A stretch of 64,000 bases of DNA from Caldicellulosiruptor diazotrophicus (GTDB lineage Bacteria > Bacillota > Thermoanaerobacteria > Caldicellulosiruptorales > Caldicellulosiruptoraceae), in assembly GCF_017347585.1 (NCBI RefSeq), contig NZ_AP024480.1, forward strand, positions 1,200,001-1,264,000. The letters are read 5' to 3'. Position 1 is the first letter of the stretch. Every line of letters starts with the position of its first letter. The translations under genes and the position numbers were made by a program. Below, one piece after another: positions 10,690 to 19,259 of the stretch. The notes under the pieces were generated by a model that saw only the letters and a list, made by a program, of their open reading frames with translations, was not told the origin of the DNA and made no database searches.

Positions 10690-10739
10690 TACATTTGTAG
10701 TCACACCTATATTATACATCTGAAAAATTAACTTGTAAA
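10690..10739 (-). promoter_or_regulatory. promoter with two BlaI-type dyads before the NlpC/P60 operon
   Basis: Minus-strand TTTACA (10734-10739), 17 bases and TATAAT (10711-10716). A perfect TACA-NN-TGTA dyad lies downstream at 10690-10699, and a one-mismatch copy (TTCAGATGTA) overlaps the -10 at 10714-10723. Centres are 24 bases apart, almost the same as at the blaI promoter (25). Confidence 0.7.
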
Positions 10740-13010: not shown

Positions 13011-14570
13011 TTACTTAATTCCAAACTCCCTATCTATTTGCTTTTTTATCTGCTCATAATCAGATTCTGGTAATTTTTGGTCAGTAGAGAATTCATAATG
13101 CATTAAGGCCCATTTGTCATAGATATGCTTTGTTAATTTCCATGTCCCATCCTGCTTTTCTAATTCAAAAATATTTTCTCCATATGAAATAAACGGCGGA
13201 TATGCTTCTTTTAGTTTTATCTCTAAGTCAATAACTACCTTGGCTTTGTTGCCATCAAGCTCTATGTTCTTATAATGAAGTTCATATGGAAAATGTCTCT
13301 TCTCAACATAACAGTACTTTTTTTCGTCTATATATTTTCTTCTGAATACTAACATTTTTAATGCAACAACTTTATTATGATTCTGTATCTTTGACATATC
13401 CAAGTACGGTGTTATATCTATATACTCCATTTGAAGATAAGCTTTGTACTGTGTTTCATAAAATCCTTCTATAGTTGATTTGATTGCCTCTATCTCATCG
13501 CTATCAAAACTCAAAATATCTTTTGCCCATATTTGAACAAATGCACTTAAGAATATTGTTGTTGATACTAACACCACAACAAAAACCTTAGCACCTTTGC
13601 TCATTTTCCTTACCTTCCAACTCATAATAAACCTAAATCTCTCAACAATGCTTTCTTTTCTACCTACCAGACCAAATGCCGCGCCGGCTCCACTGCCTAT
13701 ACTCACCAAAAGTGTGTTATAAAGTACCTCTGCATACCTTCTTTTGCCATCCTTCTTAAGCTTTCTTATTACTTCTTCGTCACATGAATATTCACATTCT
13801 CTATTTAGCTTTAAAACAGCAAAATATACCAAGGGGTTAAACCAATGAAGTGCATTTATTAATTTGCTTAGCCATTTAACAAGTACATCTTTTCTCTTGA
13901 AGTGTACAAGTTCATGTCTTATAATTAATCTTAAATCTTCTCTTACTATGTCCTTTGTAGGTATTACTAGGATCGGAGTAATTATTCCGATTAGCATAGG
14001 TGTTTGTATAATATCACTTTCTAATATCTTTATCTTTTTTGGAATTTTTCTTAAATTGCAATACCTTTCAATCATTCTCCTGCAATATTCATTTGAACAT
14101 TCTCGAGAACTTCTTGTAAGTATCATTTTAAACCAAATATACCTTATCAAAAACCATGCAAAAAATACTATGGCACCTACAAACCAAACATAACCAATAA
14201 ATTCTACAAATTTTTCAGGGTTAAAATAACTAATATTTTTATAAGGCAGGGCAGTTAAAGCCCCACCTTGTGCTGTATTTTCTGTTAGTTGTAAGTTCAA
14301 TGCATTGTTGTTATTTAATTTTGAGGTCATATGACTGCTGTTGCCTAATATAATACTCTGATTTAGTACTTTACTATCTTTCTTACAAAATTTAATCAAT
14401 ACATTCCATGGAATGGTAAAACAAAAAAGCCCTATCATCCAAATATAATACATTGCTCTTGCGCTCAAATGCTCTTTAAAGATTTTGCTCAAAATAGCAA
14501 ATATCAAAACAGCTATGCTACCACCTACTGTCATTACTAAAATCCATTTGAATATAACTTCTATATTCAT
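13011..14570 (-). CDS. M56-family (BlaR1/MecR1-like) membrane metallopeptidase with a non-penicillin-binding sensor tail
   Basis: A 519-residue protein with hydrophobic segments near residues 5-30, 38-60, 122-147 and 327-347. The cytoplasmic zinc site is HELVH (219-223), followed by LHWFNPLVYF and NRECEYSCDEE, the BlaR1 pattern. After the last transmembrane segment comes an extracytoplasmic domain (357-519) that is not the transpeptidase-like sensor of true BlaR1: no SxxK/KTG set is visible, and it resembles the N-terminal domain of the amidase at 11689. It is seven bases downstream of blaI. By analogy it would sense an outside signal and trigger cleavage of the repressor. The ligand is unknown. 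Confidence 0.9.
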   Translation of the reverse strand: MNIEVIFKWILVMTVGGSIAVLIFAILSKIFKEHLSARAMYYIWMIGLFCFTIPWNVLIKFCKKDSKVLNQSIILGNSSHMTSKLNNNNALNLQLTENTAQGGALTALPYKNISYFNPEKFVEFIGYVWFVGAIVFFAWFLIRYIWFKMILTRSSRECSNEYCRRMIERYCNLRKIPKKIKILESDIIQTPMLIGIITPILVIPTKDIVREDLRLIIRHELVHFKRKDVLVKWLSKLINALHWFNPLVYFAVLKLNRECEYSCDEEVIRKLKKDGKRRYAEVLYNTLLVSIGSGAGAAFGLVGRKESIVERFRFIMSWKVRKMSKGAKVFVVVLVSTTIFLSAFVQIWAKDILSFDSDEIEAIKSTIEGFYETQYKAYLQMEYIDITPYLDMSKIQNHNKVVALKMLVFRRKYIDEKKYCYVEKRHFPYELHYKNIELDGNKAKVVIDLEIKLKEAYPPFISYGENIFELEKQDGTWKLTKHIYDKWALMHYEFSTDQKLPESDYEQIKKQIDREFGIK

Positions 14571-14975: not shown

Positions 14976-15026
14976 TACAATTGTGATTACACATATATTT
15001 TACAATAGTAAAAACCAATTTGTAAA
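14976..15026 (-). promoter_or_regulatory. blaI promoter with two operator dyads
   Basis: Minus-strand TTTACA (15021-15026), 18 bases and TAAAAT (14997-15002). Plus-strand dyads TACAATTGTG (14976-14985) and TACAATAGTA (15001-15010), each one base off TACA-NN-TGTA, lie over the start region and the -10. The whole block recurs almost unchanged at 17922-17972. Confidence 0.7.
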
Positions 15027-15159: not shown

Positions 15160-15280
15160 ATTTATCAAAGCAATATTAGAAAAAAAAACAGAGTATTTAT
15201 CTTGCTCATATGAAATACCCTAAGAAATTAAGGAAGTGTATTTTTTACACAAATGCCATTGAGAGTGTAAATAGAGGGGC
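15160..15280 (+). mobile_element. decayed fragment of an IS256-type transposase
   Basis: The plus-strand frame starting at 15210 encodes MKYPKKLRKCIFYTNAIESV followed by NRG, closely matching the conserved YP..IRK.IYTTNAIES.NR block near the C-terminus of IS256-family transposases. Upstream, related sequence continues in another frame (about 15160-15225). Nothing of the rest of the gene is left, so this is a relic, and a sign of past insertion beside blaI. Confidence 0.6.
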
Positions 15281-15308
15281 TGTCCATTCATCTTTTTGGA
15301 CAGCCCCT
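15275..15308. terminator. strong hairpin without a T-tract next to the IS relic
   Basis: AGGGGCTGTCC (15275-15285) and GGACAGCCCCT (15298-15308) form an 11-base perfect stem with a 12-base loop. No long T-run follows on either strand. The GGGGCTGTCC sequence resembles terminal repeats of several insertion sequences, so it may mark an IS end and may also stop transcripts arriving from the propeller gene at 15354. Confidence 0.5.
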
Positions 15309-15353
15309 ATTATCTTAACCAATTATCATTATCAATTTACAATTGCTGGTTAT

Positions 15354-16586
15354 TCAATTCAAAATTAAATACTCACTATATTTGTCGTTAGTATTGTCTT
15401 TCAAATAGTTTCTAATAAATAAATTAGTAGAAGGAGTTTCAGAATATAACATAACATAATTAGAATATCCTTTTTGAGGTTTTAAATAAGGAATTTTGTA
15501 ATATTTTAGTTCTTTTAATAAAAATATATAAATACCATCTTTCAAGTAATTACCATACCAAGATAAATATCCTCCAGAAATATATGGGTCTGCAAATGTA
15601 ACCACACTTGATTTTTTCATAGAATACAATTCAGGATATACTATTACTTTCCATTTAAATGGAGCTTTTGATATATCACATAAAACTATTTGATCTTGAG
15701 AAATTATTCCGTTTATATGTCGAAGAGCAATAACATAATTTTTATAAATCCTTGGCATTACAAGTTCGTTATTTGGAGAGATTTTTATTTTTTTCTTTTT
15801 TTCGATATTATATAAGTATATTTCTCCACTTTCTGTCCTCATTGTATGAGTTTCTATAATATTTGATATACACCAAACTATATTATCACCATAAATAGAT
15901 GGAGGGTATATTAATCTATTTTCTTTTTCAGGTATTTTTTCAATTATGGAATATTTTTTTGTTTTCATATCAAATAATTTTATAACTAAATAGATAATTC
16001 CCATTTTATCCTTTTCATAGTTTAAATAAACAACTTTGCCATTGTGAGCAAATATATCTCTCCACATAACACTTGCTTTAGCTCTTATATCATCATTAGC
16101 GGAAATACTTGCTTCATTACATTTATCAATCAAGCAGATTGTATTGGTATTAATATCATATCCATATAACTTCCAATTACAACTTAGATATAAATATCCC
16201 TTTTTTCTTTCTCCTTCCATCCAATAGAAATATCTTCCATCAAAGTTTTCAGAAATGCTCAAAAAGTTCTTTTCAGTAATTTTGTGTATCAACTTTGTAT
16301 GTCTTTTCTTTAAGTCTTTAATAAAATATGCATCTTCATTATTAGAAAGCCCAATAAATCTGTTTGAGTCAATAGCAATAATCAAATTTTCATCTTTTTT
16401 CTTTTTAAATGTTTTCAAAAGAATACTATTAAAATTTTCTTCTTTTTTAGGCAGATATTCAAAAAGATCTTTACTATATGCTATTTGCAACAATGGTTGA
16501 CTACCAATGAATCTAAGAAAAGAAAGTAAAATAAAAGCAGCTATTAAAATAAATATTTTTTTCGCAGTTTTTGATATGTTAAACAT
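15354..16586 (-). CDS. membrane-anchored propeller-like protein of unknown function
   Basis: A 410-residue product with one N-terminal transmembrane segment (residues about 10-28) and then repeated beta-strand patterns such as GRYFYWMEGERKKGYLYLSC, KVVYLNYEKDKMGIIYLV and NRLIYPPSIYGDNIVWCISN, which look like propeller blades of the TolB/DUF5050 kind. No catalytic motif is visible. It lies 45 bases downstream of the C39-like peptidase gene with its own GAGGAG site. The pair mirrors the NlpC/P60-plus-propeller pair at 7566-10537, suggesting that the anchored propeller partners the secreted peptidase; that role is inference. Confidence 0.75.
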   Translation of the reverse strand: MFNISKTAKKIFILIAAFILLSFLRFIGSQPLLQIAYSKDLFEYLPKKEENFNSILLKTFKKKKDENLIIAIDSNRFIGLSNNEDAYFIKDLKKRHTKLIHKITEKNFLSISENFDGRYFYWMEGERKKGYLYLSCNWKLYGYDINTNTICLIDKCNEASISANDDIRAKASVMWRDIFAHNGKVVYLNYEKDKMGIIYLVIKLFDMKTKKYSIIEKIPEKENRLIYPPSIYGDNIVWCISNIIETHTMRTESGEIYLYNIEKKKKIKISPNNELVMPRIYKNYVIALRHINGIISQDQIVLCDISKAPFKWKVIVYPELYSMKKSSVVTFADPYISGGYLSWYGNYLKDGIYIFLLKELKYYKIPYLKPQKGYSNYVMLYSETPSTNLFIRNYLKDNTNDKYSEYLILN

Positions 16587-16631
16587 TTTTAATTCTCCTC
16601 GTTTCTGTGATTTATTTGATCTAATTTAAAA

Positions 16632-17562
16632 TTACCAGACAATACCTCTGTCTTTGCATAACTTAACGAATTCGCTATAATTATCAGTCAATTTACAACC
16701 GTTATTGTATTTAGAGGAATCTGAATAATAAATTTGATGATTTACTGGGTCATAACCAATTAATGCAATATAATGCCAATATTCTTTTTGTCTATCATAA
16801 CCAGGTAGATGATAGCTACCTGCAACCATATGAATATCAGCAATAACACCATATCCAAATAGAATATCACTTGTTACGTAATTCCATAATTCTATTTCTG
16901 AAGGAGACCATTTTATTACATGCACAATACCTGACCAATCTCTCATAACTCTTTCCCAGCGGGAGTCAAATGGTGTACCATCCGTTGTTGTTCCCAAATC
17001 TTGAGCCAAATTATCTTGAGATACAGCAATCGACGGATTACTTCTTTTATAATATATGTTAGAAGCTTTAAGACAATTGTTGGCTGCAGCTGGTCCACAA
17101 TAATAATCATTCTTTTGCAACTCTGAAACAGGATTTAGCGATATAATTGTCGAATTTATTAATATTTGAGACATTGGCTTAAATTCTGAAAAACTACGGT
17201 TGTTTTGAATATAATCTTATTCTTTCCAAGAGAGAGGTTTCCATAAGTTTATTTCCTTCCATTTCATTAACAAAATCTTTTATTATGTTTTCTATCTTTG
17301 ATTGTGAATTAGCTGTTTCCACATTTGTTTTAACATTGTTTAACTCAGTGAGGAGCAAATTAATATATCTATATTATTTTATTTCAGATTTTTTATTAGA
17401 TATAATTAATAGTTCTTTATCGGGTAGCTCAGACTGTGAGTTGATATTTGAAAAATTGCTAGTGTCTTTTGTGGAATTCGATATTTCAGAAAAGCTTTTA
17501 TCTGATGAAAGATTAATGTTAAAAATTAACAGCAGAGATAATATAATGCAAAATTTTCCCAT
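16632..17562 (-). pseudogene. secreted C39-like cysteine peptidase, broken by a stop and a frameshift
   Basis: The intact piece (16632-17174, 180 residues) contains NDYYCGPAAANNCL with the catalytic Cys and EYWHYIALIGYDP with the His, the pattern of peptidase_C39-like domains. Upstream, an ATG at 17562 starts a signal peptide (FCIILSLLLIFNINLSS) and a Ser/Asn-rich linker that ends at a TAA at 17374. The same frame then reads on as a helical linker to a TAG at 17194. Moving to the catalytic frame needs one base skipped between 17194 and 17219. The original product would be about 309 residues and exported. The catalytic piece alone lacks a signal peptide. Confidence 0.75.
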
Positions 17563-17829
17563 TTTATCTCTTATTTTTATGAGAAAACACTCTTTTTTTT
17601 ATTTTTTTAATTCAAATTTCTAAACCCAAAATATACTCTTTCAGTGTTTTTTTTAGATGTTTAAGAAGTATCAAAGCTACAACAAAACATAGCTATCATC
17701 CCTCTTTTGCACATATATTTTCAAAACATAGTGATTTATGCTAAACATATTTACAATTCTTTTAATTTCAATTTCTTTTCTTTATTAAAATTTATTAATA
17801 AAAACAATTTTTATTGATAAAACCTTTTT
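17563..17829. other. AT-rich spacer, nothing recognised
   Basis: About 270 bases, very AT-rich, between the C39 pseudogene and the blaI relic. No coding frame, hairpin with a T-run or repeat stands out. It would be the long leader if the relic promoter drives the C39 operon. Confidence 0.5.
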
Positions 17830-17904
17830 TCAAACCCATTTGATGTCTTTTTTTAACCTCACCTCTAACTCAGCTTCTGATGGCTTTAATAAATCCTTTT
17901 TCAT
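17830..17904 (-). pseudogene. relic of a second blaI gene
   Basis: An ATG at 17904 with a GGGGAG site begins MKKDLLKPSEAELEV, nearly the same as the start of BlaI at 14958. It then jumps in frame to RLKKDIKWV and stops, so about 18 codons are missing inside and everything after KW is lost. DNA identity with the intact blaI is high on both sides of the deletion. It is a duplicated and collapsed copy; the 24-codon product cannot form the winged helix. Confidence 0.85.
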
Positions 17905-17921
17905 TTACTTCGCTCCCCTTT

Positions 17922-17972
17922 TACAATTGTGATTACACATATATTTTACAATAGTAAAAACCAATTTGTAAA
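17922..17972 (-). promoter_or_regulatory. duplicated blaI-type promoter and operators
   Basis: Minus-strand TTTACA (17967-17972), 18 bases and TAAAAT (17943-17948), with dyads TACAATTGTG (17922-17931) and TACAATAGTA (17947-17956). The block is almost identical to that at 14976-15026. It now points at the blaI relic and, about 340 bases further, the C39-propeller genes, so it could place them under BlaI control. Confidence 0.7.
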
Positions 17973-18076
17973 GAGGTTTTTGAAAAGTTTTTTAAAACTT
18001 TTGACGCAGAGTCATAAGAGAAATATGATTCATATTTGACAATCTATAACGATGCAGAAATCAGAATTAACACATA

Positions 18077-18148
18077 AAGAAGCTCCCTTTTCTTGGCATT
18101 TGTTTTTTATAATTTGTAAGCTATATAGCCAAGACAAGGGAGCTTCTT
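18077..18148 (-). terminator. long hairpin after aroB
   Basis: Arms 18077-18097 and 18128-18148 (AAGAAGCTCCCTT... with GCCAAG...) form a 21-base stem with one mismatch and a 30-base AT-rich loop, 26 bases past the aroB stop. On the minus strand it is followed by TTTATG, a weak T-run. It probably ends the ileS-aroB transcript and separates it from the island. Confidence 0.7.
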
Positions 18149-18173
18149 CTTGACTATGTCAGACTGAGGCATT

Positions 18174-19259
18174 TTAAGATAAAACAATTTTTTCGAACCT
18201 ATCAAGTGCCTCATATAAAATATCTTCATTAACTTCGTAACCTAAAACATAATCACATACATCTTTTAATAAAACCATTCTTATAGAAGCATTAATATTC
18301 TTCTTGTCATATTTCATAATTGAGATAATTTGGCTCTTCTCAAATCTTTGAGGAAGTTTTATACTATTCTTCTCAAAAATTCTTATTAAAAGATCTACGT
18401 TTGACAAATCAAAATTAAATATCATATTCGAAAGTATCATCTCAGCAATCATTCCCAAAATAACAAATATCCCATGAGAAAAATAGTAATTGTAATACGT
18501 CTCTAATGCATGGCCTACAGTATGGCCAAAATTCAGAACTTCTCTCAAAAGTGATTCCTTTTCATCCTTTTCAACAACTTTAACTTTACAGTTAATAGAT
18601 TTCTTTATCAACTGCATAGCAAGTATTTTATCTTGAAAAATCTTAAAAACGTCGTTTTCAAATTTATCTTTTTTAATCAATATACTCTTATCTAAAGTGA
18701 AACCATATTTTATTATTTCACCTAAACCAGATAAAATCTCTCTTCTTGGCAATGTTTCTAAAAACTTAGGACATATGATTATCATTTCAGGCTGATAAAA
18801 TGTTCCAATCTGGTTCTTATAAGATTTATAATCAATTCCTGTTTTTCCGCCAATACTACTATCAACCATTGAAAGAAGAGTTGTTGGAACGTGAATGAGC
18901 CTCACACCACGTTTATATGTAGATGCTACAAACCCTACTACATCACCAACAACCCCTCCACCAATTGCAACAAACAATGCTCTTCTGTCTACATTGCTAT
19001 CCAAAAGATAATCAATGGCTTTCAGGTAAGACTCTATTGACTTTGACTCCTCACCTTCATCAAAAAGGTAAAGGTAAGCAGGTTTAAGGCTATCAATAAA
19101 ACCTTTGTAGAGTCTGTAGACCATCTTGTCAGTAAATATTACAAGATTTGAGTAGTTAAAATATGCAATATGTTCTCCAATTTTTTCAACTTCCTCAACA
19201 AAAACAATAGGAATGTTTTTTTCTTCCCTTTTCAAATTTAAGTAAATCCTATCTTCCAT
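18174..19259 (-). CDS. aroB: 3-dehydroquinate synthase
   Basis: Second step of the shikimate pathway, converting DAHP to 3-dehydroquinate with NAD and a divalent metal. Seen are the NAD-binding GGGVVGDVVGFVASTYKRGV, PTTLLSMVDSSIGGKTGIDY (active site) and the metal-binding LNFGHTVGHALE. The ATG at 19259 (361 residues) is preferred to that at 19268, because AAAGG lies nine bases before the former and directly against the latter. It follows ileS after a terminator, and is the last housekeeping gene before the accessory island. No other shikimate gene is adjacent; aroH lies at 43787. Confidence 0.95.
   Translation of the reverse strand: MEDRIYLNLKREEKNIPIVFVEEVEKIGEHIAYFNYSNLVIFTDKMVYRLYKGFIDSLKPAYLYLFDEGEESKSIESYLKAIDYLLDSNVDRRALFVAIGGGVVGDVVGFVASTYKRGVRLIHVPTTLLSMVDSSIGGKTGIDYKSYKNQIGTFYQPEMIIICPKFLETLPRREILSGLGEIIKYGFTLDKSILIKKDKFENDVFKIFQDKILAMQLIKKSINCKVKVVEKDEKESLLREVLNFGHTVGHALETYYNYYFSHGIFVILGMIAEMILSNMIFNFDLSNVDLLIRIFEKNSIKLPQRFEKSQIISIMKYDKKNINASIRMVLLKDVCDYVLGYEVNEDILYEALDRFEKIVLS

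Follow-up and report, generated by a model that had tools for sequence, protein, structure and literature searches.

What keeps the promoter of a repressor gene in place once most of the gene behind it has gone? The question is raised by positions 17972-17830 on the minus strand of the window (the whole stretch of 64,000 nucleotides of DNA from the thermophile Caldicellulosiruptor diazotrophicus analysed here), where a BlaI-type promoter with two operators is followed by a 24-codon in-frame stub of blaI (Table 1). In a 132-base alignment (E 1e-54), promoter and head of the stub agree to 95% with those of an intact blaI gene (15045-14915), and the 51-base promoter/operator core of the stub (P1) is the same, letter for letter, as that of the intact blaI promoter (P2). 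This bears out the first-pass annotation of this DNA, which had described a second blaI promoter nearly identical to the intact one. Its account of a gene cut to 24 codons by an in-frame internal deletion and loss of the 3' part was also accurate: the stub reads BlaI codons 1-15 and continues with RLK-KDIKW, with 19 codons gone in all, and the remainder of the 126-aa blaI gene is absent. With 24 codons only, the stub lacks the complete DNA-binding and dimer domains of a functional BlaI. When the own 2.6-Mb genome was searched with the block, two strong copies were recovered, the next match having an E value of 7e-4; a third promoter of the same type, P3, is 77% similar.

Table 1. Features of the BlaI cluster in the window (positions count from the first letter of the window).
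Feature	Position	Strand	Remarks
Long hairpin between aroB and stub promoter	18076..18149	-	18050-18175 (-) folded, z -6.5 vs shuffles
P1 -35 hexamer TTTACA	17972-17967	-	unchanged in 9/9 copies upstream of the 410-aa gene
Operator 1 (OP1) TACTATTGTA	17956-17947	-	overlaps P1 -10; identical in 8/9 copies
P1 -10 hexamer TAAAAT	17948-17943	-	spacing 18; unchanged in 9/9 copies
Operator 2 (OP2) CACAATTGTA	17931-17922	-	directly 3' of the expected transcript start
Collapsed blaI, 24 codons + stop, peptide MKKDLLKPSEAELEVRLKKDIKWV	17904-17830	-	ATG at 17904, stop ends 17830
Peptidase_C39_2 gene	16632..17562	-	signal-peptide ORF 17562-17374 and C39-domain ORF 17174-16632, out of register
410-aa membrane-anchored protein	15354..16586	-	first fully intact gene behind the stub promoter
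Hairpin 3' of the 410-aa gene	15275..15308	-	15260-15325 (-) folded, z -5.35
P2, intact blaI promoter/operator core	14976..15026	-	identical to the stub core
Intact blaI, 126 aa	14958-14578	-	PF03965, E 4.7e-32; BlaI/MecI structures match
M56 (BlaR1-type) sensor protease, 519 aa	13011..14570	-	PF05569, E 8.5e-55
P3, same-type third promoter/operator	10690..10739	-	upstream of the 508-aa gene 10537-9011

The same annotation had the promoter pointing at genes for a C39 peptidase and a propeller protein. The adjoining gene for a secreted C39-type peptidase has a broken front part, however, so that the nearest downstream gene to be fully intact is that of the 410-aa protein, ~1.3 kb from the stub in the window. 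The front part is broken differently in each of the genomes G000, G002 and G005, and in these three the C39 domain is open, without insertions, with a nonsynonymous to synonymous ratio of 0.08-0.11; its ORF may have an internal translation start, or may be freshly dead. In G006, G009, G010 and G011 the C39 gene is mostly deleted. The 410-aa gene has a dN/dS of 0.14-0.43 (21 pairs), and where it occurs at the cluster it is open in seven genomes and broken in two (G006 and G010). Its product is probably a beta-propeller, judging from a predicted model of low confidence (mean pLDDT 58.1, pTM 0.63, 182 of 410 residues below 50) for which a Foldseek search of solved structures placed TolB and other propellers first (E 1.2e-7, TM-scores ~0.3-0.4); a sequence search against solved structures gave no significant match (best E 0.11), and neither Pfam nor NCBIfam contained a match. 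A scan of 16400-18200 revealed no terminator-like site. The long hairpin on the aroB side likely insulates the unit from aroB, and the hairpin 3' of the 410-aa gene is the probable end of the unit; the former drew no T-tailed terminator flag within the part scanned, nor did the latter in the terminator scan.

We compared 12 Caldicellulosiruptor genomes, the own genome and eleven sisters. One sister, G002, has a plasmid segment that agrees with NC_012036.1 of C. bescii DSM 6725 at 100% over 3000 bases, which places the set in Caldicellulosiruptor. Strong copies of the block number 24 and occur in every genome but one; 12 of them, including two in G003, precede an intact blaI, and the other 12 do not. 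The two junctions of the window recur in six of the 12 genomes (G000, G002, G005, G006, G009 and G010), the stubs of G009 and G010 having one further small deletion. Among the 12 other copies, G011 carries a shorter blaI head, G004 and G007 each have a blaI head fused into the 410-aa gene, and G003 and G004 each have a bare promoter that faces an opposite-strand gene. A separate collapse is seen in G009 (L043, 1325339-1325447), where the sequence passes from the blaI promoter and start towards the final 139 residues of M56 and the promoter elements are retained. In total, a collapsed head or a bare promoter is present in 10 of the 12 genomes; G001 has intact blaI only, and a genome search of G008 detected neither such a BlaI (at E 1e-6) nor the block. 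Since the junctions are shared across genomes, the collapse is neither recent nor private to the window, which removes the option of recent decay that had been considered initially. The complete second blaI-M56 copy that was to be looked for in sister genomes does exist: G003 has two complete pairs. A mobile repeat, considered as a source of the copies, was rejected, as the 24 strong copies among the matches listed all lie at this cluster.

The distance over which the block is separated from the 410-aa gene differs widely. Measured from block start to the start of the 410-aa gene, it amounts to ~1.4 kb in G000, G002 and G005 and to ~0.5 kb in G006 and G010. G009 has the longest interval, 2.5 kb, and G011 one of 0.37 kb, while the interval is zero in both G004 and G007. 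In the last two genomes the blaI head runs in frame into the 410-aa ORF, one frame shifted from blaI; the two fusions are probably one event, and the head would provide either extra N-terminal residues or, should translation begin at the old start, which G004 still has, an upstream region. A transposase-like gene, which we take to be IS110-like, separates P1 from the 410-aa gene in G009.

In the promoter itself, changes are unevenly distributed. Of the 51 core positions, 30 belong to elements (-35, OP1, -10 and OP2) and 21 lie between them. The change count was confined to the nine copies that precede the 410-aa gene, setting aside the other 15 of the 24, and was made on the species topology cut to these nine genomes with gaps treated as a state. 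In the nine copies, the 30 element positions have 5 changes and the other 21 positions 22 (permutation p 0.002), and 4 of the 30 element positions are variable compared with 10 of the 21 others (Fisher 0.0087). For the six copies of the same collapse, the corresponding values are 2 of 30 and 6 of 21 (Fisher 0.043). A similar pattern is found in the 12 intact blaI promoters (4 of 30 against 8 of 21, Fisher 0.044), so that in this respect the stub promoter looks like a working one. OP2 occurs among the nine copies as CACAATTGTA (n=2), TACAATTGTA (n=5), TACATTTGTA (n=1) and TACATTGGTA (n=1). Both the -35 and the -10 hexamer are mutated in the two orphan copies that face opposite-strand genes (G003 and G004); as these share the same mutated letters, they probably go back to one event.

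The coding part of the stub presents another picture. Its length varies from 15 to 24 codons among the seven unfused heads, amino-acid changes are present, and GGAG is missing before three of the seven compared with none of the 12 intact genes. Over codons 1-14, only 5 sites are variable among the heads (1, 1 and 3 by codon position, against 0, 1 and 9 in the intact genes), which are too few to prove that the stub drifts freely. The comparison leans towards transcription signals having been kept and translation signals let go, the numbers being small. Free drift of the remnant in relatives was one half of the outcome that the first-pass annotation regarded as refuting its reading; the coding stub does drift in length, but the promoter elements drift much less.

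Taken on these sequence comparisons, it is probable that the BlaI-type switch of the stub now controls the neighbouring cell-surface genes, in line with the earlier suggestion that only the control region was retained: changes avoid the elements, a promoter of this type lies upstream of the 410-aa gene in all nine genomes having that gene at the cluster, and two species show an in-frame capture. Several observations speak against such control. The link to the downstream gene is damaged in three of the nine genomes despite an intact P1 (G006 and G010 have a broken gene, G009 the transposase gene), and the ~1.3 kb from stub to 410-aa gene in the window belong to a region with other promoter-like matches. 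The scanned region has 17 such matches compared with 11.1 (sd 3.1) in shuffles, and one on the same strand (16794-16767, 10 of 12) equals P1 in score. The damaged links would also suit a neutral relic, that is, a promoter left behind by the deletions and slowly decaying with a recombining patch, as would the decay of the stub ORF, of the ribosome site in three of seven heads and of the C39 front part. Furthermore, divergence in the six-genome set is 0.069 for the whole core, 0.075 for the spacer and 0.068 for the stub, the core being in effect no lower than the spacer (in G000, G002 and G005 it is 0.013 for the core and 0.068 for the spacer). We nevertheless consider a relic unlikely, because the changes avoid the -35, the -10 and the operators, both hexamers are kept in nine of nine copies before the 410-aa gene but in neither orphan, and an in-frame capture is seen in two species.

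Alternatively, the likeness of the cores might reflect recombination between P1 and the promoter of intact blaI rather than selection acting on P1. The P1 and P2 cores are indeed identical in G000 and G005, where copying from P2 is possible, and the occurrence of the same upstream flank on intact blaI and on stubs speaks for exchange at the block. In seven of the nine genomes, however, the two cores differ at 4-11 positions, which recent copying from P2 fails to explain, and the changes on P1 taken alone fall mostly between the elements; this reading therefore has little probability. The stub might also act as a decoy, a spare site that would sequester BlaI and thereby define the threshold at which the switch responds, as was proposed at the outset under the heading of titration. 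The orphan of G003, in which both operators are exactly preserved although the -35 and -10 are lost, fits this idea; that of G004, with one change in each operator, does not, and a decoy would have no need of the -35 and -10 that are unchanged in the nine other copies, so we regard a decoy as very improbable. It is more improbable still that the 24-codon ORF regulates the downstream genes as a leader peptide or attenuator: a start codon, a stop and, before four of the seven unfused copies, GGAG are present, but the variation in length and amino acids and the missing GGAG of the other three copies argue otherwise, and the stub RNA of the window's copy has no special fold (z 0.25).

If P1 is a BlaI-controlled switch, it would belong to a regulon. 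The composite pattern TTTACA-N14-18-TGTA-N15-18-ACANNTGTA has three matches in the own genome (2.6 Mb), namely P1, P2 and P3 (the last before the 508-aa gene). In the 12 genomes it has 21 matches, all at the cluster by coordinates and none in G008, compared with 2 for a control pattern read backwards. In favour of the capture, none of the three genomes without a 410-aa gene at the cluster retains a stub promoter that is intact: it is absent from G001 and G008, and G003 has the mutated orphan only. Against it, the 410-aa relative of G001 sits elsewhere, without a pattern match. The available text of one report gives TACANNTGTA as the operator core of BlaI, MecI and CopY, and the sequences TACATATGTA and TACAAATGTA carried by P3 in G004 and G007 fit it; according to the same source, the ten operator bases alone do not predict binding (PMC7253601).

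On the basis of these data we propose that a second blaI once stood here and was truncated by deletions that exit the gene at its GAGG-rich codons 13-15, and that P1 and both operators were retained as a BlaI-controlled switch of the eroding secreted C39 gene and the 410-aa gene. By analogy with the family, dimers of the intact BlaI (14958-14578) would occupy OP1 and OP2, thereby blocking the polymerase. A cell-surface signal would then lead, via the M56 protease, to the loss of BlaI and to joint induction of the C39 and 410-aa genes from P1, of blaI, M56 and the amidase gene from P2, and of the 508-aa and 379-aa genes from P3.

Like the BlaI/BlaR1 (MecI/MecR1) systems of staphylococci and bacilli, the cluster encodes a BlaI-family repressor (PF03965), with winged-helix and dimer domains and matches to BlaI/MecI structures (query positions 19-135), followed directly by an M56 sensor protease (PF05569). 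The two TACA/TGTA-type dyads per promoter described for those systems, as far as the accessible parts of the reports go (PMC7253601, PMC4549145), have counterparts at P1, P2 and P3 by sequence match. The cluster differs from them in having an extra promoter made from a collapsed blaI, and in that no beta-lactamase or penicillin-binding protein of the blaZ/mecA type was identified among the eight proteins scanned, seven of which were also included in a second (NCBIfam) scan. The sensor scores far under the cut-offs of the BlaR1/MecR1 NCBIfam models (133 of 400, 66 of 1200 and 41 of 1200 bits). Also different is the outer domain of the sensor (13011-13580 (-)), which shares 52% identity across 160 residues with the N-terminal domain of the adjoining, co-encoded Amidase_6 protein (12852-12295 (-)). 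This likeness recalls BlaR1, whose sensor resembles the enzyme that it induces. The BlaI/M56 switch in Caldicellulosiruptor appears to serve cell-surface proteins, not beta-lactam resistance.

The CopY/CopR repressors are homologous and likewise use the core TACANNTGTA and two operators, but they are described, in the portion of the source available, as copper-responsive and regulated by metal binding (PMC7253601), whereas here a protease sensor adjoins the repressor; no copper genes were identified among the eight cluster proteins scanned. For C. thermocellum, the accessible text of another report assigns BlaI_0696 and BlaI_1845 small regulons that include their own operons, with targets that have two pairs of inverted repeats, as P1-P3 do; the operators (GTCTAT / GACTAT) have other letters than those found here, and that portion of the report does not mention a repressor-gene remnant as a target promoter (PMC8457756). 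A literature search with limited terms had no paper on the cluster, or on regulon growth of this kind, among the matches listed. The same stub is present in C. bescii (G002), its promoter core at 1437044-1437094 (+) and the 410-aa gene beginning at 1438407, and 5' RNA-seq and RNA-seq data for that species are deposited as GSE163475, as stated in the part of the source that could be consulted (PMC8579813).

Concerning the origin of the collapsed heads, those of the six genomes sharing the window's junctions, of G011 and of G004/G007 all exit blaI at or beside TTAGAGG (codons 13-15), and the right side of the G004 junction resembles the GAGG ribosome-binding site before the 410-aa gene in sisters. 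From these letters, it is likely that short GAGG repeats caused the deletions, and some collapsed heads may descend from one another. The identical upstream flank that joins intact blaI in some species and stubs in others indicates that exchange at the block has happened. In addition, dS between G000 and G005 is 0.088 for the 410-aa gene against 0.30 for aroB, a low value which indicates that the region was partly exchanged between species, so that the copies are not independent.

It is tempting, though on balance rather doubtful, to extend this to a general route by which the genus builds local regulons through the collapse of duplicated regulator genes. A self-regulated blaI promoter would be duplicated, deletions reusing one in-frame GAGG-rich point would remove the gene, and the left-over switch would approach the adjacent surface-protein gene stepwise in different species, from 1.4 kb through 0.4 kb to in-frame fusion. 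The capture proposed for P1 would in itself be a case of a target gene entering the regulon of a repressor without evolving an operator, through inheritance of the complete promoter left by a collapsed repressor gene, with intermediates across sister species.

Several minor observations concern the surroundings of the cluster. A contig scan with aroB led to two distant loci, which are unrelated. Two more BlaI-family genes, 48-52% identical, lie outside the cluster in each of G003 (C1:595275, 2303080) and G011 (C1:1307137, 830992). Behind P3, a short ORF (MSKKIFLPLG..) was considered as a second collapsed first gene; the 123-aa ORF of G010 looked like a patchwork, and we make no claim for it. 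The 508-aa protein (10537-9011 (-)) stops in frame inside a DCSGF-type domain, presumably NlpC/P60-like, and beyond this stop the frame remains open as far as the end that the protein has in G001 and G004 (574 aa there). G005 (L040) and G010 (L044) have a diverged, opposite-strand 508-aa-like gene with TACAATTGTA upstream in a different operator layout. Finally, a single 677-aa frame in G007 (L042) contains the N-terminal part of M56 together with the front of the 508-aa protein, apparently by fusion.
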